Source: Terramyces sp. JEL0728 (Eukaryota > Chytridiomycota > Chytridiomycetes > Rhizophydiales > Terramycetaceae). From it: a DNA stretch of 45,903 bases. Location of the stretch: NCBI GenBank assembly GCA_027603945.1, contig JADIIU010000104.1, positions 1 to 45,903 on the forward strand. Reading direction: 5' to 3'. Below are positions 892 through 44,456 of this stretch, piece after piece. The position numbers and the translations under genes were made by a program. The notes under the pieces are model-generated. The model had not been told where the DNA came from, did no database searches, and saw only the letters and a program-made list of their open reading frames with translations. The first letter of the stretch is position 1, and every line of letters starts with the position of its first letter.

Positions 892-3275
892 ATGGAAGAA
901 ACGGAAATAGACAAACAGATTCAAGATGACATTACGGAATTATCCGAGAAAGACCCAGAAAAACAACTTGGGGATCTGGCACTGGATTTCACTGGCGGTT
1001 TAATTGCAACTGACGATGATGTGAACACACCAGCATTTACTATCCGCGCGGTATTAATCGCAACTGTTTTTTCAATTCCGCTGACATTTATTAATACTGT
1101 AGCGTCATTCAGAAACAACGCCTTTGGGATTCCTTCAACCATTGCAAATATCCTTGCGTATCCAATTGGTATCTTTTTTGCAGCCACCTTACCCAATGTA
1201 TCGCTTTTTGGTATGCAGTTGAACCCAGGTCCCTTTTCAGTCAAGGAGCACGTTTTGATCAATACTATTGTTTCTGCTTCTGCTGCTTCTCCATATGGTA
1301 TTGATAATGTAGTTGGACAGTACTTGTTTTTCAATGATCGTGATGTAAACTTTTGGAACTCGTTTGTGTTTGTTGCCTTGACTCAATTCTTGGGCTACGG
1401 CCTTGCTGGTCTTGGGCGAAGGTTCTTTGTTAAACCTACCGCAATGTTATGGCCAAGTGTTCTTGGACAGGTTGGATTTTTCAATTCTTTTCATGGTGCA
1501 AAGTCCCTGGATAGTCCGGACAGCAAGTATTATAATAGCATGTCTAGGTAGCTTTTTTTAATGTAGATATACTGCTTTCTGGCTTGCGTTTAGCTTCATG
1601 TTCATTTACCAGTGGATCCCATCGTACTTTGCTACCACGCTTACTTCAGTGTCACTCTTGTGCTTCTTGTCGAAAAACAGAGTTGTTCGGTTCTTGGGAT
1701 CTTCATATGTAGATACAGGTCCAGGTATCTTGTCTTTTTCATTTGATTGGACCTATATTGGCGGAGCGTATTCCCCAATGTATGTCAACTGGAACTCTAT
1801 GTTTGGAAATGTGCTGGGAATGTGGGTTATTGCCCCACTGGCATATTATATGGGTGCATTTGGTACTCCTACGTTGCAACCAGAAATGAATTACGGCGGT
1901 GGGTATATTAATTCTTTTACTGACTGGAAAAACTCGACTATTTCTTACGATCCGCTTCCGCCTTATTCTTCAAACAGTTTGTACGATGTTAACGGATATC
2001 AATTATCTTTAGATTCCGGCGGTGGTTGGCCATCATTGTTGGATGAAAATAACAATTTGAATCAAACCGCGTTTGATATTGCTGGAGACAAGATCTATTT
2101 ATCGACTGGATTCGCCTTTTCGTATCTTGCTAGTTTCTTGGAATTTGGCGCAATGTTTTCCCAAACCTTCTTGTTTTACGGCAAGGATATTTACCGTCAA
2201 ATGAAAGAAGCTGCCAATCAGACTGAAAATGATTTGGATTCAAAAGACCCGCATTACAAAATCATGAAGAACTACAAGGATGTAGGTGAACCTTACTACT
2301 TGGTTTACTTTGCCGTGTTGACTATTGCAACAATTCTCTTCCTTCAATGGTCAGTGTTTACTTTGCCTTGGTACGGATCTATTCTTGCTATTCTCATTTC
2401 TATTCTCGGTGCTATTCCTACTGGGGCTTTGGCAGGTATCACTGGCAATACCCCAGGTTTGAATATTATTTCCGAAATGATTGGCGGGTTCATGTTTACT
2501 GGCAAGCCGGTTTATGTAATGACATTCAAGTCACTTGGAACAAACGTGGTTGGTCAAACAATCACTTTACTTGGAGACTTGAAACTAGGACATTACATGT
2601 ATTTTTTGTTTAATTCAGGCATATTTCTCCTATTGCTATGATTGCGTCGCAGTTTATCGGCACTCTGTATGGTGCAATTATCAATACCAGCGCATCTTTC
2701 TATGCGATGAATAATATAGTAAATATTACAGATCCACAGACCCAGTATGGAGCTCAAGGGTACTTGGTATTTGCTTCTGCTGGTGGTATTTGGGGAGCGC
2801 TAGGTATATTTTGCTAATCCAAGGTCCAGCTCGAGCTTGGGGTGCTTCATCGCCGTACTTTGTACTAAACTATGGATACTTGATTGGATTCTTACTTCCA
2901 TTCATTCCATTCTTGATGAACAAGGTATACCCTGCCAAATTTTGGAATTATGTAAACTTTTACATTATTTGTGATGCAATGGGTCCTTATACTGGCACTA
3001 TCAACAGTGGCTACATCAACGTCATAATCGTATCCATTTTCGTGCAGTTTTATCTTTACCGATACAAAAGAGATTTTTGGGACAAGTATGTCTATTCAAT
3101 TCAAATCGCATTTGACACTGCAGCTCCGCTTGTGACTACCATTGGTGTATTACTCCAGACATATGTCATTACTGATTCTGGAAGCTCTCAGCAAGGGCTG
3201 TTTACTCCATCTACAGGAGTCTACGATTACTACTGCTATGGGCAAACGTGGGATGGAAGTGCATCCTCATTTTAG
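892..3275 (+). CDS. Oligopeptide transporter, OPT family
   Basis: Multi-pass membrane protein that should import small peptides (or glutathione-like substrates) with protons. Four exons are joined across introns 1548-1566 (19 nt), 2599-2618 (20 nt) and 2804-2823 (20 nt). Removing them gives one frame carrying OPT landmarks: FHGAKSLDSPD, the AFWLAFSFMFIYQWIPSY membrane segment, a long loop after YMNWNSMFGN-type sequence, GNTPGLNIISEMIGGFM, and DLKLGHYM in the second half. The predicted protein is about 775 residues, normal for the family. The start at 892 is the first ATG of the frame. The 3' end is less certain: the frame stops at 3275, but another plus-strand frame (about 3306-3378) encodes a plausible extra hydrophobic stretch and would need an untypical intron of about 47 nt. 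Confidence 0.88.
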
Positions 3276-3339
3276 AATAAATTTGTTTTTAAATTGGAAT
3301 TGCAGCTACTATTGGTTTGGGACTCTATTATAACACAAT

Positions 3340-4103
3340 TTATTTCTTGTACTGGACCACATCCAATTCTATCTCGTGAATGTTGCTGAATGAATCCAGC
3401 TTTATATAGACTACAAGATGGCTTCCCACTGCGCATTTGTCTATTGGAGAAACTTTAACTATCCCGTCTTTGAACGACAGCATCATATATACACATTCTA
3501 CATTAATATCATAGTACCTTGTCCCATACTAACACCCAGTATCAGGACTCTCATCGATAAAAAGTACTTTACTGGGTCCGGTAATCCAGAGTACATTTCT
3601 TTGGCTTCTTTTTCAATAGAAGAATACGGGATGCAAAAGTTTTCCATTCCGATATGATTCATTAGCAACAAGAGTGTCAGTATTACCATTGAAGTTTGCG
3701 GGACATATGAGGCAAGTATCAGAATCAGTCCAACTGTAACAAATCCAAGTATAAATGAATACTGCTGACAGAATAAGCAAAAGAGGTATAACAAGACAGT
3801 AACAAGTGACAAATTAGCTTTGCCGTTGCAAGTGTGAGTTGGATTTATCCTGTCCCAGTAAATCAAGCTGATTTCATCCTGATCATCCAACTCAAGGTAC
3901 AAAACTGAATGTTTGGACGATTTACGCTCAGTAAGAATAGATGAAATTCTGTTGTTGAATTTCTGGAATTCGTATTTCCACTTGAAGCCGTAGCGATCAA
4001 AGCAAAATGCAAAGTGTGGGGTGATTGTTTTGATTTGCAGGGTATTCTCTAGTACTTTTGTGTCGATATCTTGTCTAACTGTAGTTACAAGTGACTCTAG
4101 CAT
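3340..4103 (-). CDS. Predicted membrane protein, family not recognised
   Basis: Two exons are joined across a 20-nt intron at 3498-3517 (GTACTATGATATTAATGTAG in gene orientation), giving 247 residues. The N-terminal 110 residues are soluble and mixed-charge. Two adjacent hydrophobic segments follow (around LSLVTVLLYLFCLFCQQYSF and GFVTVGLILILASYV), then a soluble C-terminal domain of about 100 residues. I do not recognise the family. The topology (two close membrane spans between soluble domains) resembles PIG-H-like proteins, but the diagnostic motif is not visible. The 3' end converges on the OPT gene, with the stop codons about 65 nt apart, or overlapping if OPT extends. Confidence 0.6.
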
Positions 4104-5092: not shown

Positions 5093-6071
5093 ATGAATCC
5101 AAAGATCATAGACGGTATCAAAGCAGTTGTCTACGGCCAAGTCCTCTCAATCATCCTTTCATCTACGTTTATTTTCACTGAAATGGTAAACCAGGGTGAC
5201 ATTTATCCGTACATTTTCCCTAATGAATTAATGTATCACTTGCTGTTCCTCATCTGTTTGTTTAAAACCGGGTATATCCTCAATCTGTACAAGACTAAAG
5301 GAAATGCAAGAGTTTACCTTTGGGTTATTTCTATGGGTTGTGTTGATGTATTGGCAAACATGGCCATGCAAAAATCCTTCCAGTACACTTCTGCCATCTC
5401 TGCTGTGTTGATTTCATCCACCTCTGCTATTCTCGCTGTGCCTATGTCTTATTTTTTGTTGAAATCCAGATACAAACAGATGGCACGGATTGGGTGTAAT
5501 TGTGGTACTGATTGGCTTAATCTTTATTAATTGGTCAAAGTACAATCAGAATGCTGGTGAAAGTTATGACTTTGAAGTAACTGGATCCATCCTTGCTACC
5601 TTGGCTTCCCTTGGTTTCGCAGCTTCATCTGTTATTCAAGTTAAAGTCATTGAAGATATCGATGAAGGATATCCATGGGGTGCTCTTTCCGGGTTCGGTG
5701 TTGTTTCTTCATTTGTTGCATTAATCATTGCCAACCTCACTCCTTTGCACGCCGAAGATAGAGATTTGTTGATCCAATCCGACTCACCATACGCATACTA
5801 TATCATTGGATACATTGTCGCGTTAGCTCTGTTCTATGTCTTGTCACCATTGTACTTGCAAAAATGGTCTGCTGTCAATTTCCAAATGTCCATCTTGACC
5901 TCCGATGTTGGTATTTATATCTTCAATGTGTTCTACCTGCAAGCTAGTCTTACTGCTCTTTATACTACTGGTTTCTTTGTTGTGTTGATTGGTATGGCTG
6001 TTTTCAATATGGCACCTGTCCTTGCTGGAGAAACTGAAGATCATATTCCTGCTGTGTCTATGAAAGGCTAA
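5093..6071 (+). CDS. SLC35F-type (DMT/EamA) membrane transporter, apparent +1 frameshift
   Basis: Member of the solute carrier 35 F1/F2/F6 (DUF914) branch of the drug/metabolite transporter superfamily, with about ten membrane spans. Landmarks are the N-terminal GQVLSIILSSTF, MAMQKSFQYTSAISAVLISS, the SRYK turn, and a C-terminal LSPLYLQKWSAVNFQMSILTSD with a final QASLTALYTTGFFVVLIG span. The frame from 5093 runs to KSRYKQMARIG and then must move by one base to continue as VIVVLIGLIFINW. The change lies at the GGG run around 5492-5494. No GT...AG segment of suitable length is present, so this is a one-base insertion (assembly error, real mutation or programmed shift), not an intron. Without one G the protein has 325 residues, a normal length. 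An AATAAA hexamer overlaps the stop codon (6070-6075). Confidence 0.82.
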
Positions 6072-6297: not shown

Positions 6298-7300
6298 ATG
6301 GCTGACAGAGATCTCGATGAAATTGAAGAAACAGAGCAAGACGTACTCTTGCCACCACCAGTAACAACCAAAGCATCAGTCTACCAAAAAGTAGAATCGC
6401 ACAAGAAATCACTATTCGCAGCACTACTTGTCCTCATTCTATATTTCACCTCTTACTATATTTTTATTCCTCGGCTAGTGCAAGAAAAGATTGACGGCCA
6501 AGGTTCAATTCTACAACACTTGCACATAAACTCATTCAGCGATATTGACTTGTCACTAAAAATTCCTGTTGATCAATCACCAATTTCAGCTCAAATAGAC
6601 TTGGGTAATTTAAACTTGTATTTGAATGAATCGCAGTTCGGGAACATCAAGTTTCCATTGATTTACAGTTTTGCTAACAGTCCTGTTGTTTGGATTAACA
6701 GTACTGTTGACCTTGATCCTAATTTGGCTGTTATTCAGTATTACTTGGGCAAGATCGTCAAGCATGGAGTGCAGGGAAAGATGGTTGTTAAAGCTACTCC
6801 GAGTGTGCATATTCCTATTCTATTTGGTACATGGAAAGCCAAATTGCATAAAGAATATCCAATGGTGCAGGATTTTGACCCAAAGCAATTCAATGCTAGT
6901 TACAGTGAAGTGGATATCAAGACTGTAAAAAAAAAGGGCTTTGATCAGTACTTTGTGTCTTTAAATGCAAATTTTATCAATCCATATCCTGTATACAGTA
7001 AACTAGACAATAAAGTATTTTTTGGTGTTTACTACCAAGGTAAATTAAATTAACATAGGCAACAAGATTTTAGATATTACAGTTGATTTACGATTGCGAG
7101 AACAGCAAAACAAGAAGCGAATCAGTATTGTTAGTGCTGCAGAGTATAGCTTTGAGTTGATGGAAATGGTTGGTAAAATTGCAGAGAATGATGATGTGTA
7201 TTTGACTGTAAAGGATTTCCAGATTGAAGGGATTGGTGAATATCAAGACATTATTGATGGTTTGTACTATGAATTCCTTGTCCCAAAGATTAAAGTTTGA
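6298..7300 (+). CDS. Single-TM protein with LEA2/DUF3712-like lumenal domain
   Basis: Two exons are joined across a 19-nt intron, 7040-7058 (GTAAATTAAATTAACATAG), giving 327 residues. A short acidic cytosolic tail (DLDEIEETEQD) precedes one membrane span (LFAALLVLILYFTSYYIFIP, about residues 40-58). A large beta-rich domain follows, with the pattern LYLNESQFGNIKFPL and LNANFINPYPVYSKLDNKVFF typical of fungal DUF3712/LEA-14-like vacuolar or ER membrane proteins. The assignment is by pattern only; the function of such proteins is poorly known, and lipid or vacuole-membrane roles have been suggested. AATAAA overlaps the TGA stop (7300-7305). A second protein of the same architecture is encoded at 11940-12779. 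Confidence 0.72.
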
Positions 7301-7322
7301 ATAAACCCCAGTAACTGATTGT

Positions 7323-7671
7323 TTATTTAAACACGTCTGAAATAGCTTCTTTGGTGAACAGCTGATCAACGGTTTGAATCAAGTCATTCCGCTCCTTGTT
7401 CAAATACTCGAAATATTCACCTACATGAAAACAAAGTACCAAGATGCGTGTCCATTTCGAGTACTTGCTTATACTCTTTAATCAGCATTTTCATTTCATT
7501 GACTTTTGCCTTGATTTTCTCAAACTTTGTTTCCAGATTCACTTGTTCATTTTTTGTGCTGTATACTGGGATAGAGTTCATCTTGGTAATCAGCGTATTG
7601 TACTTTGATTCTAGGTCAATGTTGAGTGTTTGGATGTTAAAGTCACTGTTTATTAGTGTTGCTTCGTTCAT
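7323..7671 (-). CDS. Small coiled-coil protein
   Basis: Two exons are joined across a 19-nt intron, 7421-7439 (GTACTTTGTTTTCATGTAG), giving 109 residues. Most of the chain is predicted helix with heptad spacing (IDLESKYNTLITKMNS, VNLETKFEKIKAKVNEMK, MLIKEYKQVLEM). The C-terminus (DLIQTVDQLFTKEAISDVF) has a weak resemblance to the end of VPS37-type Mod(r) domains (ESCRT-I), but the protein is shorter, so this is only a suggestion. An AATAAA hexamer spans the stop codon (minus strand, 7322-7327). The gene lies convergently with the DUF3712-like gene, with 22 nt between stop codons. Confidence 0.65.
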
Positions 7672-9544: not shown

Positions 9545-10024
9545 ATGGTTCTGGAAACTCTTTGTGAAAAACAGCGACCGTAATGCTATATTGACATTTC
9601 CTTATGGAGATAACACTGGCCATAGTCCTCACGCCAACTCTAGTCAGGTTCGACCGATGGGGACAACATTCCTGAAAGCAATTGCAATTTGCTTGTTGTC
9701 AGAACGATTCTCTTTGGCGGAAGCAATTGGAAAAGTGTCACTGCAAGAGTCCTCTCTAGTAAAGGAAACAAGGAAAAATATTTTGATACACCAGATAACC
9801 CAAAGAGACAATCTGCAGAAAAGGTGGAATCTCAAAAGAAAATACCATCGTTTGTGCCGGGTTATGCTAATGGACAGCCAATCTATACAAACATACGCAT
9901 AATTCCGCAAGAAGCCATTGCTAGGATTGAAGATGAAATTGCTCTTCAAGAAAGCAGGAATGTGCACCGCGTACTAGTAAAGTACCTTTATTTGAATAAA
10001 ACTGCAGATTTTTCGCTTGTATAG
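9545..10024 (+). CDS. Protein of unknown function, 5' exon structure unresolved
   Basis: A convincing coding frame ends at 10024 (open from about 9689). It contains KGNKEKYFDTPDNPKRQ, IPSFVPGYANGQPIYTN and a helical tail, IPQEAIARIEDEIALQES. The 5' part is unclear. An ATG at 9545 is in the same frame but meets stops after 12 codons. A second frame from an ATG at 9657 (MGTTFLKAIAICLLSERF) could join through a GT...AG segment of about 23 nt ending near 9776. None of the junctions has the usual TAAY branch motif. I do not recognise the family. Basic and hydroxylated residues before KGNKEKY could be a mitochondrial presequence (inference). Confidence 0.4.
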
Positions 10025-10113: not shown

Positions 10114-11281
10114 ATGTCACTCTCCATGTCTGAAAAAACAGAAGGAAAGGAAATATTCCAAGACGACGAGTTTTTATTCGGTGTAGAACCCTGGGATCCA
10201 AAACAGAATGAATTTATACTCAATAGTAACGAACCAGCCCACCAACACGCGGTTTTTCAAAAATCAGGAATATACAAGAGAAAATGGAAAGATGAAAAGA
10301 AATTGAAAAAGAAGGATTTGTTTGACCAATCTGTCTTGTGTAGAGTAGCTAGAAGGATGGATAAGGAATCGGAATGCGATACAGTTTATATGCACTCAAA
10401 GAAAATTATACAGGTAGAGTACGATATTGATCCGAATTTGTTTGATATCGAGCAAGACAAAGAGGAGGATGATTTGGATTTGGAATCCGTAAAGCCAATG
10501 GCGCTGCAACAATCAATTACGATGCGACACGCCGACATTGAGGAGTTTTACAGGCCATTGATAGAGAGAAAAAAAGTATCGTATCCAGATCAGTACCAAC
10601 CTGCGATCCCATTCCAGCCCAAAATAAAAGAACCAATAGTGCCAAACCCAAAGGATCAGGACTACCATCCAAATCTACTAAAAAGACTCAATAATACATC
10701 AAAAAATGTTGTATTTTGTTCACCAGTATCCACCGGTATAGCAGAATGGAGGAAACAACGAGTAATGGCAACCATTACGATGAAACAACTACAAAAGATA
10801 TTTCCATCTGCTTACTTTCTCAAACAGCAAAAAAAGAATGAAGAACAAAGCCCAATAGAAGAATTAAGAGCGAAAACACCGTATTTAAACAAGCACTGTC
10901 TTACCATTAACTTGGAGGACGGCGAACAGAAATTAACAGCGAAAGGATCTGGCCACTGCTTCCCGTTCGAATCAACAAGTGAAAAAATCGACGATTGCTA
11001 CATAGCCAAACACAGAGTACACTCGACTAACTCAGATTGTAAAAAAGACTAAATCTCTTCCGCAGCTAAAGTCACAGTCGTCGCTGGTAAACCATCCGTA
11101 TTATTTGAATCCAAATCAGTTGTGCATCAGGTTCAACAATCCTGAAAAAAAGGAACAAAAGTTGTCCAAGGTACTGCAAAAAAAGAGTAATTTGGCTGCT
11201 GCACAGAAAGGCGCATTACCCCCAATTACTCTGCTTTCATTATCGTCATCTATAAAAGCGCTCTCACTTCAATTCGAATAA
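10114..11281 (+). CDS. Charged, probably nuclear protein of unknown family
   Basis: Two exons are joined across a 19-nt intron, 11017-11035 (GTACACTCGACTAACTCAG); splicing is phase 0 and yields 382 residues. The protein is rich in charged residues (WKDEKKLKKKDLFDQ, DIEQDKEEDDLDLES) with conserved-looking aromatic blocks: FGVEPWDPKQNEFIL, VYMHSKKIIQVEYDIDPNLF, HADIEEFYRPLIERKKVSYP, and in exon 2 HPYYLNPNQLCIRFNNP. There is no signal peptide or membrane span. I considered a relation to TFIID/TAF-type scaffolds because of the RP motif after a histidine-rich block, but cannot support it. An AATAAA hexamer overlaps the stop codon (11277-11282). Confidence 0.68.
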
Positions 11282-11908: not shown

Positions 11909-11939
11909 CCAGATTGTAACTATAAATAAACATTTTATA

Positions 11940-29307: not shown

Positions 29308-31019
29308 ATGTCAGTAAACTTTTCAACACACTCTGCTGAACTACAGCAAGCGTACAACAGCATCCTTGACCAATCAAGCCCTAATGATTGGGCAATGTTC
29401 AGCTACGGTCATGGTCAGGAGTTGAAAGTAACTGGAACAGGAGATGGGGGCTTGGAAGAACTTAAAGATGAATTTGAAGGCAGTAAGATACAGTATGCAT
29501 TTGCCAGAGTTGTAGAACAATTATCTGGACTACCAAAGTTTGTACTTATTTCTTGGTGTGGAGAAGGTGTGCCAGTTGCTCGCAAGGGTTTCTTCAACAT
29601 CCATGTGAACGACGTTGCTCAATATTTCAAAGGATTTCATGTTCATATAAACGCTCGCAGCGAAGATGATGTCGAGCCGGCATTTATTATGGGTAAAGTC
29701 AGGGATTCATCTGGTGCAAAGTACTCGATTCAAGGAAATGTCGCTAATCCATCTGTAAATAAGCCTCCACCTAAAACACCTGCCTTTGCACCTCCAAAGT
29801 CAAACAGCTATGCTCCAAACAGCTATACACCTAAACCTGCCCAACCAATCCAACCTGCCAAACCTGCTAAACCTGCGTATACACCGGCTCCAGCTCATGT
29901 ACCCGCATCAGTTCCATCAGCCAACAGTGACAAAGGACCAAAGGCACTTTATGAATCTGTAGGATCTGCGTACCAGCCAATCAAAACTAACCCAAAGCCA
30001 TTGTCAGCTAAATTCGGGAACACATTTGATCATCCAACGCCAGCGCAAAATACACCTGCTCCCCCAGTTACTTCTAGTATTGCAAGTAGAGCAGCCAATT
30101 TCAGCCAACCGCCGGTTACTTCGTCTTATCAACCAATTAAATTAGCCCCAAAGCCATTATACGACGAAGGTACCGCTAAAGTAGCATACAATGCACCTTC
30201 TCAACCTATTGAAGGAAGAACTTCTGTTCAAAGGCAACAGGAAGAAAAATTAGCTATACAACGCCAGCAAGAAGAACGGTTGGCTCAACAAAAACAGCAA
30301 GACGAGGAAGAAGCTCAGCGATTAAGAGCGCAAGAGAATCAAAAAAGAAGAGTAAATGAACAACATGAACAGCAAAGATTGCAAGAACAACAAAGACAAC
30401 AAGAACAAAGATTGCAAGAGCAGCAGAGATTGGATGAACAGAGACGTCAAGAAGAACAAAGATTGGCTCAGCAGGAGGAAGACCGTAAAGTCCAAGAAAG
30501 ACTGAATAACTTGCGGGTTGATGATGCGCCTGCTTCAGTACAAGCAATAGCATTGTATGATTATGCTCCAGGTAATTTCTATTGAATATAGATGAGTCGA
30601 ATGAAATCCCATTAACAGAAGGCGAAACTATTACAAACATTCTTGAAGTTGACGAAGGATGGTGGCAGGGAACTAACTCTCATGGACAGAGCGGATTATT
30701 CCCTGCCAATTATGTCGAAGTTACTCAGGCATCCAGTCATCCCGCTCCAGTGCATGCTCCAGTACACCACGAACCAGAGCCTGTCCCTGCACCAGCACCA
30801 GTAGTTCAACCTGCACCGCCAGCACAAAAGGATAGAGCTATTGCATTATATGATTACGATGCAGCCGAACCGAACGAGCTGACATTTTCAACTGATGATA
30901 CAATCACAAACATTGAGTTTGTATCTGATGATTGGTGGATGGGCACATGCAAAGGATCAACAGGTCTATGTAAATACAAACTAACCCTAGTCCCTGCAAA
31001 CTACGTTGAGCTCTTATAA
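29308..31019 (+). CDS. ABP1: Actin-binding protein Abp1 (drebrin-like)
   Basis: Cortical actin-patch protein linking F-actin to endocytic partners. Three exons are joined across introns 30572-30591 (20 nt) and 30970-30990 (21 nt), giving 556 residues. An ADF-homology domain spans about residues 5-135 ([45 protein letters not shown]). A Pro/Lys-rich linker and a Gln/Glu/Arg-rich coiled coil (about 340-415) follow, then two SH3 domains ([15 protein letters not shown] with WWQG, and [15 protein letters not shown] with WWMG). Intron 2 is a multiple of three with no in-frame stop, so its retention would only insert seven residues in the last SH3 before FPANYVE. The start at 29308 ([12 protein letters not shown]) matches the family; the frame is open upstream to 29203. 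Confidence 0.96.
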
Positions 31020-31920: not shown

Positions 31921-32324
31921 ATGAGAGGTATAGGTATCCCAATCAAGGTATATTTTACTAATTGCAGTTGCTTCATGAATCCCAAGGACACATAGTTACC
32001 ATTGAATTGAAGACTGGTGGAATATACAGGGGACGATTAGTTGATGTTGAAGATAACATGAACGTTCAGTTAAAAGATATTACTTTTACAAGCAGAGAAG
32101 GAAGGGTATCGCAGTTGGAGTTAGTTTATATTCGTGGATCGCAAGTTCGATATTTCATTGTCCCGGATATGTTGAAGAATGCGCCAATGTTCAAGAGTGT
32201 TGCCAGTGGTGCTAAAGGAAAAGGTATTGGTTTGGGCAGAGGGAAAGCTACCGTTGCTAGAGCGCAAGCTCAAAGAGGAAGAGGCGGACCTCCAAGATTG
32301 CCAGGATATTCAGGTAGAGGTTAA
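31921..32324 (+). CDS. SMD3: Small nuclear ribonucleoprotein SmD3
   Basis: Core Sm protein of U1, U2, U4 and U5 snRNPs. Two exons are joined across a 20-nt intron, 31948-31967 (GTATATTTTACTAATTGCAG); exon 1 encodes only nine residues (MRGIGIPIK). The 127-residue product shows Sm1 ([34 protein letters not shown]) and Sm2 ([20 protein letters not shown]). The C-terminal RG-rich tail ([18 protein letters not shown]) is the usual arginine-methylation region. AATAAA overlaps the stop codon (32323-32328). Confidence 0.97.
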
Positions 32325-32734: not shown

Positions 32735-33056
32735 TTACTAGAATGAAAATTTCTTGGTTTTTATATCCTCAGGGTCTGTTTTGGTTTGTTTCATCGTGTT
32801 TCATGTCGTCAACAGATTCATGAATGCAGTGGGAGAGCAGACCAAGGAACAGCACGATACTTTCTGTCAATAAACGATCCGCATTCCAATTACAACCAAT
32901 TGGTTTGATTCACAATCGATCATGAAATTCTCTTTTAAAGTTTGATTGATCAGATTCGACGGCTGTTTGCGTCCAAATTGGCATGTCAACAACCACAGTT
33001 TTGGTAGCCATAAAAGGGAAAGCCGCTATTTTTACAAGTATATTATTATAATGAAT
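32735..33056. other. Intergenic region
   Basis: About 320 nt with no gene, RNA or repeat evident. Confidence 0.45.
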
Positions 33057-33533
33057 TCATGATATAATACATTCATTGTTATTTTTCCCTTTGGATTTCC
33101 CAGTAGATTTCCTTCCTTTTGGCTTGCCATTGCACTGATGGTCCGCTTCCAACCGGTGCTTTATACAAAAAGTCAATTCGCATCCATGGCATTTAATCGG
33201 CATCAGCTCTCGTTTCTGACAGTTTTTGAAATGACAAGCGTTCTCGTAAATCTTTTCTTTTTTCGTACATCCCTGGTTGATATGCAGATTGACTATTTCA
33301 TTTGGGTCTTTTCCTTTTGCAGGGAGGATTTGTGAACATACGGGGCATACTACAGTCCCTGCATCTGCTGGCATTTTAGGACAGAGATGTGCAGAGTCTG
33401 TGTTTGCGTTTGATGGTTTGGAATGATTCTTGCAATAGTTTTTTGAGCAGTACGGGCATTTGAATGGCAGATAGTCGTTTAGTTCCTTGCAGCCGTTTTG
33501 CTCGCATCCTGTCCCCAAATGTGGCATCTCCAT
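33057..33533 (-). CDS. AN1-type zinc finger protein (ZFAND2/AIRAP, Cuz1-like)
   Basis: Intronless, 158 residues. The start MEMPHLGTGCEQNGCKELND matches the family N-terminus. First AN1 finger: CKELNDYLPFKCPYCSKNYC, then KNHSKP and HLCP. Second: CHFKNCQKRELMPIKCHGC, then LTFCIKHRLEADHQC. Between them is a block with VVCPVCSQILP. The C-terminus is Lys/Gly-rich. The family binds p97/Cdc48 and the proteasome under arsenite or protein stress; UIM motifs known from some members are not visible. Confidence 0.9.
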   Translation of the reverse strand: MEMPHLGTGCEQNGCKELNDYLPFKCPYCSKNYCKNHSKPSNANTDSAHLCPKMPADAGTVVCPVCSQILPAKGKDPNEIVNLHINQGCTKKEKIYENACHFKNCQKRELMPIKCHGCELTFCIKHRLEADHQCNGKPKGRKSTGKSKGKNNNECIIS

Positions 33534-33883
33534 TTTGCTTGTTTTTGACAAACTTTTCGTCCTGTTTTGTGTTGCAACTCAAGAGAAAGAACATGCTGGA
33601 ACAATAAACATAATGCGGTATAGCTATATCTTTTTGGATATGGAACTACTAGGAGCATGGGGCGATCAGGATCCACATTCGCGAGTGCTGTCATGATATC
33701 AGAATGTGAAAAAGGTGTATCTCGGCAATTTCCGGATTTAATTACCAAGTAGAGTCGGGATAGTATAGAGTTTACCAGTGGATACACCCACACATAATAA
33801 AACAAGGTTGAATGATAAATTTATGGCTTTTTATTACATTATATTCATTTAGTCTTCGTCACTAGCTGAACCACTATCTAGCA
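33534..33883. other. Intergenic region
   Basis: About 350 nt between the AN1 gene start and the 3' end of the EAF-like gene (both leftward). A 108-codon minus-strand frame (33479-33805) overlaps the AN1 gene in another frame and lacks family support. An AATAAA is present near 33824 on the minus strand, suited to the EAF-like transcript. Confidence 0.45.
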
Positions 33884-34681
33884 TTAGTAATAGTTACCTT
33901 CAGGCTCTTCTCCAGCATCAAATAGGGATCTTGGACCAGAACCTATCTTTGGCGGTGAAATAATTTCATTTTCCTCATCGCTGCTGGTCATACCTTCTTC
34001 CAAGACAACGGATTCTTGTCTGCTCTCCATATCTTTTTCTTGATCCAGATCTTCTAGTATTTCGTCCAAACCAAAGTCATCTCCTCCGTCAGTTGGTGCT
34101 ACTTCTTGTATTGGCGGAGGCAAGTGTAATCCTGAGAGTAAATCAGACTTTTCTTTCTTTGATTCGCTCGCTGGAGACTTTTTCTTTTGAGTTCTAGATT
34201 TTGAATTATTAATCGCTGGTGAAACTGGTTTCGTTGGTAAAGCGATTTTCTTTGTTGGCGATGAAGGTTTTAGTGATGGTGATACATGTCTGTTCCTACT
34301 AGTTCTGGTGTTACTCTTTTGGAATTGAATACTACTGCCGACTTTTTCTATGGTGAAGCATTGTTCCTGTGGATTGAATATCAGAACACAATCATGGTCC
34401 TTCATTGTTGCTGGAGCTCCTTGCAGGATGTGCGACTCTGATTCAATTCCCTATATTAACACCTATTACAGAAGTGTTTTGTAGTTGTAGTGCCCAGTGC
34501 GATCCGTCTCCATGGTTTTTAACATTCATAAGTCTGGCTTGCTCTTCGGTATTCGCTGAAGACGGTATAAAGGAATCTACATTACACGAATAGTACAGCG
34601 AAAAAGATGAGCGGTATCTGTCCCATCGATGAAGGATTTTCCTATTTTTATTGGGTATGTTCCATTCTCCATTTGCGTCAT
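33884..34681 (-). CDS. ELL-associated factor (EAF) family protein
   Basis: Three exons are joined across introns 34577-34596 (20 nt, GTACTATTCGTGTAATGTAG) and 34451-34469 (19 nt, GTAATAGGTGTTAATATAG), giving 252 residues. The EAF domain is split over all three exons: YPIKIGKSFIDGTDTAHLFR, YSFIPSSANTEEQARLM, HILQGAPATMKDHDCVLIFN and EQCFTIEKVGSSIQF. The C-terminal half is Ser/Pro/Lys-rich, then acidic (DDFGLDEILEDLDQEK). EAF proteins bind ELL elongation factors and stimulate RNA polymerase II; S. pombe has such a complex. The start at 34681 (MTQMENGTYPIK) is the first ATG of the frame. Confidence 0.87.
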
Positions 34682-34925: not shown

Positions 34926-36102
34926 ATGTCACTAACTCCGCAATCAAAAAAACTAATATTCGACATAGCGCTATTAGCTTGCACTCAAGTATGCCTATAC
35001 TATGGAATTAAATACATTCTCAATACTATGGATCCACAAAGGAAAAAGAAGGACTTGGCCAAAATCAAGAGCTCAAAAATTATGAGTAAAATGGGAAAGG
35101 GTGATTTGGAATTGACTGAACACGAGGAAATGATTGCCAGTGAAATCATTTGGCCGGAAGACTTGACAGTGACATTCAATGATATCGGCGGTCTTGAACC
35201 AATCATTGATTCTCTTAGAGAAACAGTTATTTATCCATTGGTATATCCAGAATTATTCAAGCAAGTGTCTGGATTGCTAGGAGCCCCCAGAGGTGTATTA
35301 CTCTATGGCCCACCAGTAATTTAAATTAATTATAGGGATGGTAATCGAAAAATAATTTAGTGGAAAGACCATGACTGCTAAAGCATTAGCAAAAGAATCT
35401 GGAGCTACCTTTATCAATCTTCATGTTTCCACAATGTAATATCTGCTAATATCAGGACCGATAAATGGTTTGGAGAATCACAAAAGCTGGTGAATGCGTT
35501 ATTTTCATTGGCAAAAAAGCTTCAGCCAGCAATCATATTCATCGGTAATCAGAGTTAATATCAGATGAAATTGATTGTTTCTTGCGGGAGCGTAAATCTA
35601 ACGACCATGAAGCAACATCGATGATGAAGGCTGAATTCATGACTCTCTGGGATGGGTTAAACACTGGTGACGCAACTCAAATAATGATTCTTGGTGCTAC
35701 GAATAGACCAAACGACCTTGACAAAGCTATCCTAAGAAGAATGCCAAAGAGATTCTCTGTTCAGCTGCCAGACAAATCCCAAAGACAAAAAGTATTGGAA
35801 TTGGTATTGAAAAAAGTAGGTTTGGAACAGGGCTTTGATTTTGAATACCTTGCCAACATTACTGAAGGCTACTCTAATGCAGATTTGAAGGAATTGTGCA
35901 GAAACGCAGTGATGGTGCCAGTCAGAGAGTCTATCAAAAAACTGAATCAAAAAGATATTGGCAAAGTAGATATCAAGGTTACTCGCACTAATTATAGAGT
36001 TTGACGATTAGGTTGGTGCAGATGAGTGATTTTACAGGGTTTGTTGATCATCTATACAATACTGCAGATACTCTGTTCCCTATTCCTGCAGAATTGGACT
36101 AG
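34926..36102 (+). CDS. MSP1: Outer mitochondrial membrane AAA ATPase Msp1/ATAD1
   Basis: Extracts mislocalised tail-anchored proteins from the mitochondrial outer membrane. Six exons, one only 5 nt, are joined across introns 35316-35335, 35341-35360, 35436-35455, 35545-35564 and 35978-35997, all 20 nt. The product has 358 residues, close to yeast Msp1. An N-terminal membrane span lies at about residues 11-30 ([17 protein letters not shown]); [20 protein letters not shown] follows. Walker A is GPPGCGKT, assembled from three exons; the pore-loop region reads [15 protein letters not shown]; Walker B is IIFIDEIDCFL, split by intron 4; the sensor and arginine-finger region reads [20 protein letters not shown]. 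The last exon follows a non-standard GTTACT donor and restores the family-like end [12 protein letters not shown]. Confidence 0.96.
35336..35340 (+). other. MSP1: 5-nt microexon in MSP1
   Basis: GGATG lies between two 20-nt introns (35316-35335 and 35341-35360). Joined to CCA upstream and TGGAAAGACC downstream it gives PPGCGKT, the exact Walker A of Msp1/ATAD1. Skipping it, or splicing the whole 45-nt block as one intron, shifts the frame and destroys the P-loop. Confidence 0.9.
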
Positions 36103-36162: not shown

Positions 36163-39100
36163 TTAGCGGTATTGGTTGTAACCCTGATTAGATTGATTTG
36201 GATATGTGTTTTGGAAATTTTGATTAGGGAATATGGATGATTGCTGGTTGAAGCTACCAGACATCATCTGAGGGTTCATTTGATTGTTCATCTGAGGGTT
36301 CATTTGATTGTTCATCTGAGGGTTCATTTGATTGTTCATTGGCATTCCTCCCATCATTCCCTGGTTCATTCCCATTCCTTGATTCATCATTCCCTGGTTC
36401 ATTCCCTGGTTCATTCCCTGGTTCATTCCCATACTAGGATTCATCTGTGGCATCATCCCCATTCCTGTTGGTTGGGTCATCATTGGTCTATTCATCATAC
36501 CAGCTGGTTGGTTCATCATAGACATAGCCGTGCCTTGAGGAATTTGATTTTGGAAACCTGGTTGATGGAACGATGATCTACCAGTATTCGGGTTACTGAA
36601 ATTACTTCCTAATTGGCTTTGCGCAAAATTGCCACTCATTGCGCTATTTCCAGTGATATTTGGCGTCAGTACTCCTGCTAGTTAAAACGAAATACCTGAA
36701 GATGGCGAAGAAAAGATGGAAGGAGCATTTGGTGCAGCGTCTTTGAATGCGGAATAAGGATCGTTTGATTGTTGTAAATTTCCAAACGGTTGGTTTGGAG
36801 CTAAAGTTAACCATTTCTTACTTGCATTGTTCCAACTTGGTTTGACAACCCCAGTGGAAGAAACATTTGTAGCAATACCAGTAGGTTGAGATGTGAGCAT
36901 ATTGTTGAATGCATTTCCAGCAAGCGCTCCGGTTGTAACAAATCCTGGGGTTGGATTAGCATGTGGTGTAGGGATAAGAGGCGCTACTAAAGGACGAGGT
37001 GCAAATTGGGCTGGATTCATGGTTTGCATTGGCATTTGTTGAAGGGGTTGCATATGCATTTGCTGAGGAATATTTCCTTGCTGTGCAGCCATTAATTTCT
37101 GGTGTGCTTGTTGTTGAATAAGCATCGCTTGCTTGGCGGTTTCTTGCGCTTTCTGTAGAGCAAGTTCGCTTTGCTTTGCCAGTCTATTTTGTTCTTCTAA
37201 TGCCGCAGCTTGCTTTGCCTGTTCATTTGCTTTTTGAATGGCCAATCTGGCAGTCTCCAGTGTTTTTTGCGTTTCTTCCTGCTGCTGCTTTGCTTTCAAG
37301 AATGGATCGTTGGCGCTAGAAGTAACGGGTTGCGGAGCAGAATTTGCTGCGCCAGAAAATGCACCCCAAGGATCATTGTTGACGGCACTTTTGTTGGCAG
37401 AGAGTCCAAGAGATTGCGAGTTTGAAACTTGCTGCGTTGATGGTGGTTTGTTGAAACCAGTATCTGCATTGACAGCAGAACGATTGACGGTTGGCGACCT
37501 ATTTCCAGCTTTCAATAAGTTTCCAGCTTCAAACAAAGTCGCTGGATTAACTTTGTTGACATTCGAAGGTCTGCTTTGGCTTACATACTCCTGGTTTTGC
37601 AATTCTCTTGCTAGAGCTTCATCATCGGCAATCTGTCTTGCCGATTGCCCTCTTGCATTCAACATTTGCAAATTCCGAGCTTGTGCTTCAGCTTCATTTT
37701 GTACCGTTTTTGCTCTGACCTGTGCAGAAATTTGAGGTAAATTTGCAGCTTTTCTGATTCGGATAATATCACCCTCAGTTATACCCATAGCACGGAGAGC
37801 ATCTCGATCAATGTCCGACAAGATTGAAGAGTCCATTCTCTGGTCAACAAACTTTTGAGCGTAGTTAGAAGCATCGCTTGATGCAACCCCCGCTTTCACC
37901 AGCCATTCCTTCCAATCAAACCCGTTGAAAGTATGTGCAGAATTATCCACTGGAGAGAGCATGTTGGTGCTTGACCCTCTCTTTTGTTGTGGTGGTAGTG
38001 GGACATTCAGCTTGGTTCCAAAATCGTACTTGTTATTTCCTGGAATAGATCTCAAGTAATCCAGAGAAGCATCATCAAGTTTATCAAATGGAACACCAAT
38101 GATAACCCCGTTTTCCTTATGTAGTTGAACTTTGTTGTCCGAAATTCCATGATAGGCAGCCTTGACACTGAATTTCCCACTTTTATCGGTCCAATCTCGT
38201 AATTTCGTTGAATCTGGCAAATCTTTCTTCTCTGGAGCGCTCTCTGTTTTTGGTCTAGAGGTTGGAGCGGTTGGTCTAGATTCAGGCACATCTGGTCTCT
38301 TTGGAATCAGAGGAATATTAGCTGTGGGTCTAGTAGGAATAGCTGCAGCTTCAACCTTTGGTCTTGTTGGCAAAGATGGAACTTCGACCGGTCTCGTTGG
38401 CAACGCTGGTGTATCCATTTTCGGTCTGGTAGGGATTTGTGGAATGGCAGCTTTGCGCTCTTCCTCCTTTCTTCTTTCCTCTTTCCTCACTTCTTCCTGT
38501 TTACGTTTCTCTTTGGCAATCCGTTGTTCCTCTAGTTGACGTTCTTCTTCTCGACGCAAGTCTTCTTGTCTCTTTCGTTCCATCTCTTGCCTTTCTTTTT
38601 CCTTTGTATCTTCCTGTGGTTTGCGAGTAACTCCAGGGGTTTGCAGCTAAATTAGCTATCATTTACTTCAACATAGGTTTTTGGAACAAGACCCTCACCA
38701 TGTTTTTTCAAGTGTTTCACTAACCACCAATCTGGATCTGAGTTATCCAACACGATAAGCATATCGTTTTCAACAATAGCAAGTTCGCCGCTTTCAACAG
38801 GCTCGTAATCATAGAGCGCAATAGCCACTTTGGCAATTGAGCTTGGTTGATTGGCAGCCGCTGGAACAGGAGTAGGGGTTGGAGTGGGCAAGGATGGCAT
38901 TGGAGTAGCAGGAGTAGGCTGTTTATCTGGTGTCGACATTGCCAATTCAATCTGTGAGACAATCAGCAGTACTTCGGATTTGTGCTGGGCTTCATATTCC
39001 TTTGTATCATTATCGGTTTGAATGGTCAATTTGGTCTTTTTTTCCGAGTATTTCTTTACACTTTTGATTGGTATAGAATATATAATCTCCTTAGTCTAAC

Positions 39101-39794
39101 GTTTAACATTTCTGTACATCGTATAAAAAGTAAATCTTCTTTTCTTTCGCGGATACTCCGAGCAGCCCTTTAACGCTGTTCTTTTTCTTCTTTTTGTCAA
39201 TATCAACAAATGCATAGTATGGAATATCGTCTGGTCCATAAATAATTCCACTTGGCTGGTCTTTGGTTTCCATTTTTTTAAATCCTAATCCACCCAGCGC
39301 ATTAAGCAATTGATTCTTTTGCGCTGCTGCATCGCTTGGTTCCACTACTGGCGCAGGAATTGGCGCAGGGGCACTTTCATTTTGCTTGGTTAGTATTTTC
39401 ATACCTCTTCCACATACGTAGCAGGCACAAGACCGACATCATGGTCATGCTTTCCAAACCACCAATCTGCATCAACTTTTTCGTAGATTCTTATTAAGTC
39501 TCCTTCGTGAATTGTAATCTCTTCATCATTTTGAGCATCATAGTCAAATATCGCATTCACTATACAAATTGGTGTCGCCTATAGTCAAATGCATAGTACT
39601 TCTTCCACATAGGTTAAAGGAACCAGGCCACTACGGCCCTCCTGGAATGTATCAAGGGGACGCTCATAAGCTGTCCACCAGTCCTGGTCAGTGTCATCGG
39701 TGATCAGTAATATTCCTCCTTCTTTAACTGTTAATTCTTCATCTGTTTGCGCTTCGTAGTCATACAGCACTCTGGCTACTATTTTGCATTTCAT
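36163..39794 (-). CDS. SLA1: Endocytic adaptor Sla1
   Basis: Fungal endocytosis scaffold that binds Las17, Pan1/End3, ubiquitin and NPFxD cargo. Six exons are joined across introns 39579-39599 (21 nt), 39385-39404 (20), 39096-39117 (22), 38647-38666 (20) and 36678-36695 (18), giving 1176 residues. Order: SH3-1 (ARVLYDYEAQTDEELTV), SH3-2 (AIFDYDAQNDEEITIHEG), a PH-like part, SH3-3 (ALYDYEPVESGELAIVEND), a charged coiled coil, PTRP repeats, SHD1 (KLRDWTDKSGKFSVKAAYHG), SHD2/SAM (FDWKEWLVKAGVASSDASNY), a Gln/Ala-rich coil, and a C-terminal Met/Asn/Gln/Gly repeat region. Intron 2 contains a canonical TACTAAC branch site. Intron 5 has a tandem acceptor (TAGCAG). Confidence 0.95.
36265..36336. repeat. 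Three identical 24-nt repeats in SLA1 C-terminus
   Basis: A 24-nt unit (36265-36288, 36289-36312, 36313-36336) is perfectly repeated and encodes an eight-residue Asn/Gln/Met/Pro unit (minus strand). Less regular NQGM repeats follow to about 36432. The Sla1 C-terminus is repetitive in other fungi too. Confidence 0.85.
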
Positions 39795-40055: not shown

Positions 40056-41290
40056 ATGGAAGTAGATCGCGAGCCTTGGGGTTATGGCCCGCTAAGCTCC
40101 TTGTCAATGAATCCGCCATATATGTACAGCCCAAATCACAGGTGAGATCTTACTCTGTAAATCAGCAGCTTCCTGGAGATCATCATTAAAATCAATGTGT
40201 CTGGGACTAAGCACTTTTGGATCATCGCAGGGATATATTTATGCAGCCAATATTGCTAAAGAAAGGTCAACTGTCCTTGCGGCTGGTTCCAACGTGTTCA
40301 AGATTAAAATAAGGATGAGAAAACAAGATGATCGGATCCAGATAAATTCGATTGGAAATCGAAATGTAATTCTAGCGGAGATAATGTATCGTTTCCGCTG
40401 ATATTAAGCAATGTTGATATTGATATTATCTAGGTGCCAAAATGTACCAGACGCGTAGAGGACTTAGTTATGGTGGACAAGCCACTTATTTATTGAGGTT
40501 GCAATACCTTATTTTTATCTTGCAGCACCTATCATATCATGGATCTTTCTCTGGTTTACGATCTAGCAAAAACCGTTACTGATAATAGATTTGATCTGGT
40601 TCTTCATAAACCCGAACACTTTGTGAACGCAGAAACAGATTTGTGGGTGGGAAACATCTGGGCCGATCTGACAAAAATAGAGCCAAGCTCTACAAAGGAT
40701 AAAGTGGGCGGCATGCGTCGTATGTGTGGATCTATCCCATTGTTCAACAACAGCCTCGAACACTTGTTATACCTAATATTCAATAGATATGACCGACACG
40801 AGTTTCAACAAGGCATGTTCCTTATTCGGGCGGAATTCGGGCAAGACTGGTTCACTCCTATTATGCAGCATCCTCATTGTATTCTCAGGCAGCCTGTCAA
40901 ACAAGTAGCGCTAAGAAGAAACAGTACTGCGGGCACGGATTACAAGAGCATTACTCCAAATGTGCACCAATCATTCGTACTGTTTTATTTAGGTCCCAAT
41001 GTTCCGCAGTTTTGTGCAACATTTTATCCGATTGGATTGATCCCTGGAATAAATAGCTGGTAACTAAAATTGACGATAGGTCTGCTGTAGTTTCTGTGGA
41101 CGAAGACAACCGTAATGAGCCAGCACCAGTAATGCTTTCAAGTTCAAATGACATGCAGTCGCCAAACAGCAGTATGGATGTCCCATTTGATCAGTCCAAC
41201 TTTATTCAAGGGTTTCCACTTTTAGGAAAGAAAGTCGAGCCATCATTCGGAGAGGTAGATTCTAGCTTTGCTTGGAACAACTTCAATTGA
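40056..41290 (+). CDS. Multi-exon gene of unknown function, 5' exons unresolved
   Basis: The last two exons are clear: a frame from about 40526 to 41059 (HIMDLSLVYDLAKTVTDNRF, VGNIWADLTKIEPSSTKD, RYDRHEFQQGMFLIRAEFG, VLFYLGPNVPQFCATFYPIG) joined across a 20-nt intron, 41060-41079 (GTAACTAAAATTGACGATAG), to an acidic Ser-rich tail ending SSFAWNNFN. Upstream, an ATG at 40056 (MEVDREPWGYGPLSSLSMNP) and a frame at about 40195-40401 (IAKERSTVLAAGSNVFKIKI) look coding. The junctions need GT...AG segments of 21-37 nt or a tiny exon near 40404-40407; several solutions keep an open frame and I cannot choose. No family recognised; no membrane span or signal peptide. Confidence 0.55.
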
Positions 41291-41329
41291 TTTTTATTGT
41301 TATTATTCTGTTAATAAACTAGCTGTTTA

Positions 41330-43047
41330 TCACTTTTTTTCTATTTCGTGAAATGATTGTCTCGAGTATAATTTAAAAGTGCGGTCATACAAACTGGTGG
41401 CAATGTACTCGCAATCTGGACTAATATCTGCACTCATTACCTTTCCTTCCGAGCCAAAAAGCGATTTCATTGGCTTGTAATCACCGTCAGTCCATAATCT
41501 GCATGTTCCGTCATAGGAACTGCTTACCAAGAAACTGCCGTTTAACAAGTTTCTTCTCTGAACGATTGAATCATCAATGTCATGGTGTTGATCAATTTCC
41601 ATACCAGAAATAGACCAGTTTTCATATTTTTTTGATTCAAAAGAATCCGAAGCCGACCAATACTTTACTTGTGTGACGACATTCTTGTGAGCGGGTATAG
41701 TGTAAATGCAGGCGGCTTGTCGAACATCCCAGACTTTGATTGAATTGCTATAGTTAATCCAGCATTACTCCATCCCTCCCGTTGCTAACTGGTATCCGTT
41801 TGGCGACCAATTTAATGAAAGTATAGGTTTAATATGCGACTTTAAAACCATTATAGATCTACCTGTACGAAGATCCCAAACTCTACCAATAGCGTCATAG
41901 CCGCTAAATTAATATGATATTACGCTGTAGCTACTAGCGCGCCATCATTCTGGAATCCGATTGCAAATACTTCCCGAGAGTGACCTTCTTGCAATAAAAG
42001 AGTTTTCCTGGTTTCCACGTCCCACAGTCTCCACGTTGTATCGAAACTACAGTTAGTACAGAGTTACCATGCCGTTCCAACATAGTTTCCAGAAGGATGG
42101 AATGCCACACGCGCAACTCTCATATCATGGCCATCTAGTTTGCCGATTGGCTCATCTTTGTCCAGCGACCACAGATGAACTCCTCCATCAGATCCTCCAG
42201 ACACAAGATTAACAGACCCCGGCGATTGGGAAATTGTGGAGTTTGGATGGAAATCAAGGCCACTGACTCTATCTCTGTGTCCTTTAAGTAAATACACTTC
42301 TTCTGACCCTGGAACCGACCATAATTTAATATTTCCCGCCCAAGATGTAGTTGCGAGCAACTTTGAATTTGGTGAAAATTGGCAAAACCCAATGGGCCTT
42401 TCATCTCCAACTTGTAAATTTTTCGTCTGAAAATCTTGCAGTCCAGTGTAAAAATCATGCCTCAGCTGTTTCCGCTCGACAAACGGAATTTCCAATTCGT
42501 TTTTGTGTTGTTGGATTCGCTCTTTTGCATTTCCAATTGAAAAATCCAAGATTTCTAATCTTGCTTGGCGTAACTCTTCGACTCCATAGGTAAAATATTC
42601 CTCTGTTTGTCCTTCATCTTCATCAGATGAATCATCAAATTCCACAGATTCTCCTCTTAGTATTCTCTCTGCAAGTAAATTCTTTAATCTTTCCCTTCGT
42701 TCCTTTGACTATCATTAATATCAATTACCCCTTCACCAAATAATGTCATTGGCTCTTCCAATTCTCTCAGCCTGTTTCTCACTTTATTGTCGTTTGTCGG
42801 CACATCCACAGTACGAGCGACATCCTGCATTAATCAATGGTTACTTTGCGTTCAAACTGCTGCAATATCGCTTGGTCAACTACTTTTGCTGGCTGTGACA
42901 AATCCACCAATTCTTCCAGACTGATCCCTTCGTTGTTTGAATCCTTTCATTAGCAAAATTTACATTTTGTTTGTCTAATAATTTTGCACTGGCTCCTTCG
43001 TTCCTAGCTGTATTTTCAAGAGAGCCAAAGTGAATACGATCTCCCAT
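41330..43047 (-). CDS. PRP4: U4/U6 snRNP protein Prp4 (WD40)
   Basis: Splicing factor of the U4/U6-U5 tri-snRNP. Seven exons are joined across introns 42944-42963 (20 nt), 42825-42844 (20), 42709-42728 (20), 42047-42067 (21), 41904-41923 (20) and 41748-41768 (21), giving 531 residues. The N-terminal SFM domain reads [37 protein letters not shown]. The WD repeats include [95 protein letters not shown] and [20 protein letters not shown], several formed only after splicing. Intron 4 has a TACTAAC branch site. The start codon lies 23 nt after the stop codon of the nucleoporin gene on the same strand. Confidence 0.97.
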
Positions 43048-43070
43048 TGATCTTGAATTTTTTACTTTTT

Positions 43071-44456
43071 TTATTTCAAAGAAGCCTCCATATATGCCCG
43101 CTCAATCTGCGATAGCGTTGTATCATCCTCTTTGCAAACACTGGTTACTTCCGTCAGCCCTTTTCCCATTCCCTCCAAAGCAGCATACAATGGTTTGATG
43201 GATTGTGGGTCAATAGAAACAGATACAGGTTCAATGTCCTTAAACTGCTGAACTTGAGCCCAGATTTCGTTAATTCTACCTCTGAATACACTAGGCTTTG
43301 CTAGATCTCTGTCCATGCTCAACAATCTGGTAATTAACGCTTCTTCTTCTGGCCTTAGAATATAGCCCTTGTTTCTCAACAATTGAACCGATTTGAGCAA
43401 CTGGAATACTTTATGAACTAATTGGCGGTGCTTGCGCTTGTATTCTTCAATTTTAATTACTGTAGATATAGTGCGATTTTGGTCTAATTTGACGAGCTTT
43501 TCTTGTATTTCTGCGAGTTTCTCTTTGTGAGTCGCTAGTTGTTCATTTTGTATCTCGCTCCTCTTTTTAAGCCCGTCGAATCCAACTGCCAACACTGGCA
43601 CCATACTGGTATTAACAAATATTACCAAGAAGGATCTGGATTCTGTTGCTGTGCTTGTTCATACAGCGATCGATCTTCATTTGGACCAGGTTGATATAGC
43701 CCAACCTCACTTTGATGAACCATATTGTAGAAATAGTGCTGCATTAAAAAAAGGTACTTTGAAAACACAAGCAGGACTTGACGGGTCAAACGCACTTGCA
43801 GCTGCCTTTACTTGATCCAATGCTTGGGCTTGTTGATCTACATCAATTCATAATCTACTGCTGTTCTGAAAGTTCATTTGATTCTGGAATTGATTTTGTT
43901 GTGTTTGGCCAAAAGTGTTTGCTCCAAATGCATTTGGCTGTTGCGTTTGCTGACCTCCAAAGATATTTGATTGCCCGAATCCTGTGTTTGTATTGGCTTG
44001 TCCAAAAGTGTTTGTTTGAGTGTTTCCAAACAGCGACAAGGTTGGTTTAGGTTGATTTACTCCAGTGTTTAAAGTTAAAGTTGGTTTGTTTTGACCAAAG
44101 GCATTTGTATTGTTCTGTCCAAATCCTGTATTTGACTGCTGGCCAAAGGTATTTGCAGCCGGTTGTCCAAAGGTATTTGCAGCAGGCTGTCCAAAGGTAT
44201 TGGTCGTAGGCTGTCCAAAAGTATTGGTCGTAGGCTGTCCAAAAGTATTGGTCGTAGGCTGTCCAAAAGTATTAGCTGCTGGTTTTCCAAAAGTGTTAAT
44301 GGCTGCAGGTTGACCAAACCCTCCTGTCTGGTTGTTTGCTCCAAATGCGCTGGCGGTATTTGTGTTTGGCTGTCCAAATAGTGAAGTTGATTGTGTATTG
44401 CCTCCAAAGGTATTTGTCTGTCCAAAAGTATTTGCTGGTTTGGGTTGGCCAAACAT
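43071..44456 (-). CDS. NUP57: FG nucleoporin Nup57/Nup54
   Basis: Central-channel nucleoporin that pairs with Nsp1 and Nup49. Four exons are joined across introns 43838-43858 (21 nt), 43739-43757 (19) and 43606-43625 (20), giving 441 residues. The N-terminal 200 residues are FG repeats (FGQPTTNT, FGQPAANT units). The conserved part reads QALDQVKAAASAFDPSSPAC, VFKHYFYNMV, NPDPSCMVPVLAVGFDGLKK (the PDP-C-MVP motif of Nup54, restored by intron 3), then coiled coils to the end. AATAAA spans the stop codon (43070-43075, minus strand). Confidence 0.94.
44143..44310. repeat. 24-nt repeats encoding FG-repeat units
   Basis: Seven units with a 24-nt period start at 44143, 44167, 44191, 44215, 44239, 44263 and 44287. 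Units at 44215 and 44239 are identical, and others differ by a few bases. They encode eight-residue FGQP-type repeats of the nucleoporin on the minus strand, so the array looks recently expanded. Confidence 0.85.

Follow-up and report, generated by a model that had tools for sequence, protein, structure and literature searches.

Terramyces sp. JEL0728, a chytrid fungus (Chytridiomycota, Rhizophydiales), almost certainly carries ordinary U2-type spliceosomal introns of a minimal and nearly fixed size in its nuclear genome, as judged from genomic sequence. The stretch analyzed here, referred to as the window, is one whole contig of 45,903 bp (JADIIU010000104.1) from an assembly of 15.0 Mb in 231 contigs. 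JEL numbers are culture-collection numbers, and we take the organism to be a free-living soil fungus. In the window, 52 introns were placed in 19 genes, with 2 introns of 18, 12 of 19, 27 of 20, 9 of 21 and 2 of 22 nucleotides (nt). An earlier note on this DNA, correct in taking the host to be a fungus, had counted 54 introns in 23 genes (2, 13, 29, 8 and 2 for the same lengths); its size pattern is reproduced, and its intron count is closely approached. This comparison uses its length tally and the two coordinates it gave, those of the 18-nt introns at 24707-24724 and 36678-36695, which were both recovered.

The introns were placed with a gene finder that takes codon use, start, stop and GT...AG as inputs and charges all intron lengths the same cost. 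It undercounts stop-free introns whose length is a multiple of three. A first run used a flat prior on intron length (10-120 nt) and covered 246 kb, made up of the window and twenty 10-kb stretches taken from other contigs. Of its 187 introns, 93 were 19-22 nt long, and 100 introns of 15-24 nt were found with GT...AG, compared with 14-31 for ten other dinucleotide pairs. A second run permitted lengths of 10-400 nt under a stiffer penalty and included four decoy pairs. At 18-22 nt it returned 78 introns for GT...AG, compared to 10 for GA...AG, 2 for GT...AC, 6 for TT...AG and 4 for CT...AC. Since CT...AC is the reverse-complement pair and stays far below GT...AG, the peak is strand-specific. 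In none of five longer length bins did GT...AG exceed the four decoy pairs. In the first run, the decoy runs of the second and the third run, gene models had to have 450 or more coding bases and a score above 30 to be counted.

In the third run, codon use and splice signals were trained on the window only, and the flat prior spanned 13-150 nt. In 20 other loci it yielded 67 gene models with 122 kb of coding sequence, of which 56 contained one or more introns, whatever their length. There, 132 of the 180 introns were 18-22 nt long, while the remaining 48 were spread over 15-150 nt, so that the uniform tiny size extends beyond the window. The density of tiny introns in these loci is ~1.1 per kb of coding sequence, which extrapolates from 1.3% of the assembly to roughly 10,000 in the genome. 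Genome-wide statements refer to the sample of 20 stretches and the window, in which nearly all introns lie within a few nt of a single length below ~25 nt. By this sequence-based measure, tiny introns look like the standard size in this chytrid.

The introns share a motif, with GTAAWT at the donor, YTRAY as the branch site around nt 14-15, and YAG at the end. Among the 132 introns from the sampled loci, the donor has A at +3 in 126 and at +4 in 77, T at +5 in 60 and G in 24, and T at +6 in 84. TRAY occurs downstream of the donor in 108 introns. Its A is nt 14 in 62 of them and nt 15 in 36, and it is followed by five bases in 55 introns and by six in 45. The A mostly lies 5-6 nt from the intron end. 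The A+T content of these introns is 70%.

The OPT transporter gene at 892-3275 provides a test that does not depend on the gene finder. All three of its plus-strand segments, at 1548-1566 (19 nt), 2599-2618 (20 nt) and 2804-2823 (20 nt), are missing in four of four fetched paralogs (L047-L050), with alignment gaps of 19, 20 and 20 nt; the first gap can slide by 3 bases in a TAG repeat and the third by 2 bases in an AG repeat. Paralog L050 seems to carry an intron of its own, and intron gain and loss among the OPT paralogs could be studied here.

In MSP1 (plus strand), two 20-nt introns at 35316-35335 and 35341-35360 surround a micro-exon of 5 nt (35336-35340) that finishes the Walker A motif. 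Five different GT...AG removals keep the frame open in this region, and GPPGCGKT is obtained only with the one that takes out these two introns, which bears out the earlier claim that an invariant motif is restored there. Both junctions are gap-free in the alignment to homologues, as are those of the 20-nt introns at 35436-35455 and 35545-35564. A further 20-nt intron at 35978-35997 lies beyond the aligned part and was placed by frame and motif.

Altogether, 27 window junctions lie inside alignments to homologues in the PDB or to paralogs, and by eye 22 of them are gap-free. NOG1 (plus strand) has a 22-nt intron at 19554-19575 and a 20-nt intron at 21142-21161, both gap-free, and a 21-nt intron at 20914-20934 with a two-residue gap 3-4 residues away in the best PDB homologue. 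In the gene for P5C dehydrogenase (minus strand), the introns at 25815-25834 (20 nt), 25580-25598 (19 nt) and 24920-24939 (20 nt) are gap-free against PDB 3v9j, while the 18-nt intron at 24707-24724 has a one-residue gap 2 residues away. PRP4 (minus strand) contains six introns, of which those at 42825-42844 (20 nt), 42709-42728 (20 nt), 42047-42067 (21 nt), 41904-41923 (20 nt) and 41748-41768 (21 nt) are gap-free, and the one at 42944-42963 (20 nt) coincides with a five-residue gap relative to human PRP4. In NUP54 (minus strand), the 19-nt intron at 43739-43757 is gap-free, the 20-nt intron at 43606-43625 shows a one-residue gap at the junction with respect to NUP57, and the 21-nt intron at 43838-43858, outside the alignment, was placed by frame and motif.

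Over its full length, the NOG1 model without its introns shows 100% identity to the deposited protein of Terramyces sp. JEL0728, which omits the three introns, and the spliced PRP4 model equals the deposited protein, which omits all six. The segments were hence already treated as introns in the databases. As the deposited proteins are predictions too, the identity is agreement and no proof. Three other NOG1 entries, of jgi or ena origin, continue into a valine codon at the second of the three junctions and stop after another 0-10 residues.

Deposited proteins of relatives point to similar introns, which were deduced from protein entries rather than from DNA. The PRP4 of Boothiomyces sp. JEL0866 (P0122) has seven extra residues at the position of the 21-nt PRP4 intron at 42047-42067 (amino acid 307); back-translated by hand, they are compatible with retention of a 21-nt GT...AG segment that contains a TTAAY motif. 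Similarly, nine extra residues in the RPN5 of Globomyces sp. JEL0801 (P0249), at the RPN5 intron at amino acid 127, fit a retained 27-nt GT...AG segment. The corresponding Terramyces RPN5 gene (27456-28895, minus strand) has five introns: 28792-28811 (20 nt), with a one-residue gap 2 residues away, and 28479-28497 (19 nt, the site of the Globomyces insert), 28070-28088 (19 nt), 27779-27799 (21 nt) and 27681-27700 (20 nt), all gap-free.

Our 446-residue RPN5 model matches the Boothiomyces JEL0866 protein at 96% over its length. The deposited Terramyces RPN5 has 403 residues; it lacks a 26-residue exon that has a tiny intron on either side, as well as 10 residues next to a third one. The residues absent from this entry occur in the proteins of Boothiomyces JEL0866, Globomyces pollinis-pini and Batrachochytrium. 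The same 26 residues are missing in the RPN5 of Boothiomyces macroporosus, and a similar stretch in that of Globomyces sp. JEL0801; in the entries concerned (P0243, P0242 and P0249) part of the PCI region is gone. The deposited RPN5 proteins of these three species are apparently mis-spliced, with the gene caller probably fusing two tiny introns into one. Because gene callers seem to mis-splice such genes, the protein sets of this clade need to be used with care.

The genome also encodes parts of the machinery expected for such introns. The U2 RNA is canonical (140 bits), and its branch-pairing stretch is unchanged. The Slu7, Prp18 and SF1 families are present, each above the family cut-off. 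A U2AF-large-like gene reached 252 bits, below its cut-off of 310, with four stops within the match; this family was also weakly matched in 2 of 14 control genomes. The window itself carries PRP4 and an SmD3-like gene, both interrupted by tiny introns.

Several observations weigh against the assignment to ordinary spliceosomal introns. Splicing of the RNA is itself something we infer from the genomic sequence, and the A marked in each intron is a putative branch point. In 24 of the 132 introns of 18-22 nt, no TRAY was found in the zone searched. Small gaps of 1-5 residues within ~5 residues accompany 5 of the 27 checked junctions, and 25 of the 52 window introns were placed by frame and motif alone. 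From the short distance between branch site and 3' end, a loss of Slu7 and Prp18 had been predicted; both families are present, which refutes this. Neither the Rfam model nor two sequence patterns detected U6 RNA, a component every spliceosome requires, in the assembly, and U1 RNA, the N-terminus of U1-70K and RED gave no accepted match. No control genome gave a match in these latter searches either. Since U6 must exist and the controls were equally blank, these misses say little. U6 may lie in a gap or, as in some fungi, be split by an intron.

Candidates for the missing components were followed up individually. Two sub-threshold Rfam matches to U6 came from two near-identical loci and were read as not being U6. 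The two U6 patterns matched 6 and 3 places, and cmscan found no U6 at these 9 loci. For U1-70K, a human fragment was used in tblastn; at 14 of the 21 RRM loci the best matches were other RRM proteins with ~25-33% identity, and the other loci gave no match. A search of 338 kb for the C-terminal signature of U1-70K gave no hit.

Taken with the strand-specific GT...AG peak, the donor, branch and acceptor motifs, the absence of the segments from paralogs, the restored proteins and the splicing genes, the sequence data support the spliceosomal interpretation put forward in the earlier note. Each intron is read as one compact module, in which GTAAWT is followed by about six free bases, by YTRAY with its A as the 14th or 15th base, and by 5-6 bases ending in YAG. 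The predicted lariat would have a loop of 14-15 nt and a tail of 5-6 nt, and a largely normal spliceosome would probably recognize the module across the intron.

A variant of this mechanism was considered because U1 and U2 could hardly both fit on 20 nt. U1 would be lost or marginal, and U6 and U5 would choose the donor together with its fixed distance to the branch site. The low frequency of G at +5 (24 of 132) points in this direction, together with the lack of a U1 RNA, of a U1-70K N-terminus and of a U1-70K among the 21 RRM loci; in mikrocytids, likewise, only U2, U4 and U6 RNAs were identified (PMC10245619). On the other hand, U1 is present in the nucleomorph of Bigelowiella natans (PMC6461891), and all small nuclear RNAs (snRNAs) are reported in Stentor (PMC9505925). 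As the same kind of search missed U6, the absence of U1 is poorly supported, and we regard donor choice without U1 as unlikely.

Errors in assembly or base calling, or gene decay, could have broken the frames, with GT...AG segments then chosen to mend them. The window does contain a case of this kind, a frame break near 5480 without an intron motif in the gene at 5093-6071, and single-base differences separate two near-identical loci. Yet errors would give rise neither to a branch motif nor to a strand-specific excess of GT...AG around 20 nt, the same segments would not be missing in paralogs, and their removal would not restore conserved essential proteins, which makes this origin very improbable for the introns taken together. 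The gene at 5093-6071 resembles, in our reading, a nucleotide-sugar transporter, and its break may be a sequencing error, the mark of a decayed copy or a real shift. Near-identical gene copies (L001/L002, L058/L060, L054/L055) are present on separate contigs or as a pair on a single contig and suggest that the assembly contains recent duplications or haplotypes that were not merged.

Uniformly short segments are also known from systems that remove them from the DNA, like the internal eliminated sequences of ciliates, or skip them on the ribosome. For the Terramyces segments such a route is extremely improbable, given the GT...AG polarity, the donor and branch motifs and the splicing genes in the genome; chytrids are also not known to eliminate DNA. 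Finally, the real introns might mostly be longer and the tiny ones a minority, as would be implied by the deposited RPN5, from which the 26-residue exon and the 10 residues next to the third tiny intron are missing. The skipped residues are, however, retained in the related proteins named above, GT...AG shows no excess over the decoys at greater lengths, and longer candidates lack the motif, although this motif was trained on short introns. We therefore give a predominance of longer introns very little credence and retain minimal U2-type introns as the explanation.

The other window introns were placed by frame and motif. In the window, models shorter than about 100 residues were dropped. Two models had been left out beforehand: the one at 9657-10024, which contains a 23-nt intron, and the one at 5093-6071, whose 22-nt intron (5458-5479) has no motif. 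Setting aside a 45-nt intron at 33026-33070 in a weak gene model reduced the set from 53 introns in 20 genes to 52 in 19. On the plus strand, single introns lie in the unnamed genes at 6298-7300 (7040-7058, 19 nt), 10126-11281 (11017-11035, 19 nt) and 40539-41290 (41060-41079, 20 nt), in a gene for a SET-domain protein (22551-22569, 19 nt) and in the SmD3-like gene at 31921-32324 (31948-31967, 20 nt). A DRE2-like gene has two, at 15421-15441 (21 nt) and 16131-16150 (20 nt). An ABP1-like SH3 protein gene also has two, at 30572-30591 (20 nt) and 30970-30990 (21 nt); the second was placed by its motif, and its removal yields a stretch of 11 residues resembling one of 10 residues in the same protein. 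The names SET-domain protein, SmD3-like, DRE2-like, ABP1-like and, below, SLA1-like are tentative.

On the minus strand, the unnamed gene at 3340-4103 has a 20-nt intron (3498-3517) and a small gene at 7323-7671 a 19-nt intron (7421-7439). An RRM protein gene at 17961-18936 contains three introns, at 18781-18799 (19 nt), 18456-18475 (20 nt) and 18357-18375 (19 nt), as does the unnamed gene at 33849-34672, at 34577-34596 (20 nt), 34451-34469 (19 nt) and 33878-33897 (20 nt). The SLA1-like gene has six: 39579-39599 (21 nt), 39385-39404 (20 nt), 39096-39117 (22 nt), 38647-38666 (20 nt), 36801-36821 (21 nt) and 36678-36695 (18 nt). The last two lie in a low-complexity region, where the 21-nt intron, with a length divisible by three, was placed by its motif only and the 18-nt intron by frame and motif only.

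Comparable introns are known from several other lineages. The chlorarachniophyte nucleomorph of B. natans has introns of 18-21 nt (18-23 nt over four species), hundreds per genome, and U1, U2, U5 and U6 RNAs were found (PMC6461891). It resembles Terramyces in intron length. It is, however, a relic endosymbiont nucleus, reported to have no clear donor or branch motif and ~3 introns per kb of coding sequence, whereas Terramyces has plain motifs at ~1.1 per kb in a fungal nucleus. In Stentor coeruleus, GU...AG introns of 15-16 nt are reported along with all snRNAs and many spliceosome proteins (PMC9505925). Stentor shares with Terramyces the near-uniform tiny size, a nearly fixed branch A and a tail of ~5 nt, while its loop is 10-11 nt instead of 14-15 nt and it has no strong branch consensus comparable to the clear YTRAY of the 18-22-nt Terramyces introns. 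Mikrocytos mackini has 224 introns of 16-17 nt; the mikrocytids are parasites with a spliceosome reduced to 17-19 proteins, from which U2, U4 and U6 RNAs were identified (PMC10245619). The introns of M. mackini and P. canceri are like those of Terramyces in uniform length and conserved sequence, whereas Terramyces has thousands by extrapolation and retains the Slu7, Prp18 and SF1 families. Paramecium and Nyctotherus, both ciliates, likewise have ultra-short introns genome-wide, of ~25 bp (PMC5014332).

The earlier note had named nucleomorphs and some ciliates as the known cases, which is correct as far as it goes and leaves out the mikrocytids. It had also placed 18 nt near the physical limit of lariat splicing; with introns of 15-16 nt in Stentor and 16-17 nt in Mikrocytos, this is wrong. 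Among the matches listed for the open-access literature, titles and abstract openings gave no intron size for Terramyces and no fungus with introns of ~20 nt. As comparable introns have been published for nucleomorphs, heterotrich ciliates and mikrocytids, the kind of intron is already known, while the fungal host is apparently new as far as the matches listed for the open-access literature show. Uniform tiny introns had previously come from relic nuclei, parasites and ciliates; here they appear in a chytrid in which the branch site can be read and at least some of the standard splicing machinery is present. Should the strain prove culturable, the minimal intron size for a spliceosome, and whether such introns need a changed machine, would be directly testable in a fungus.

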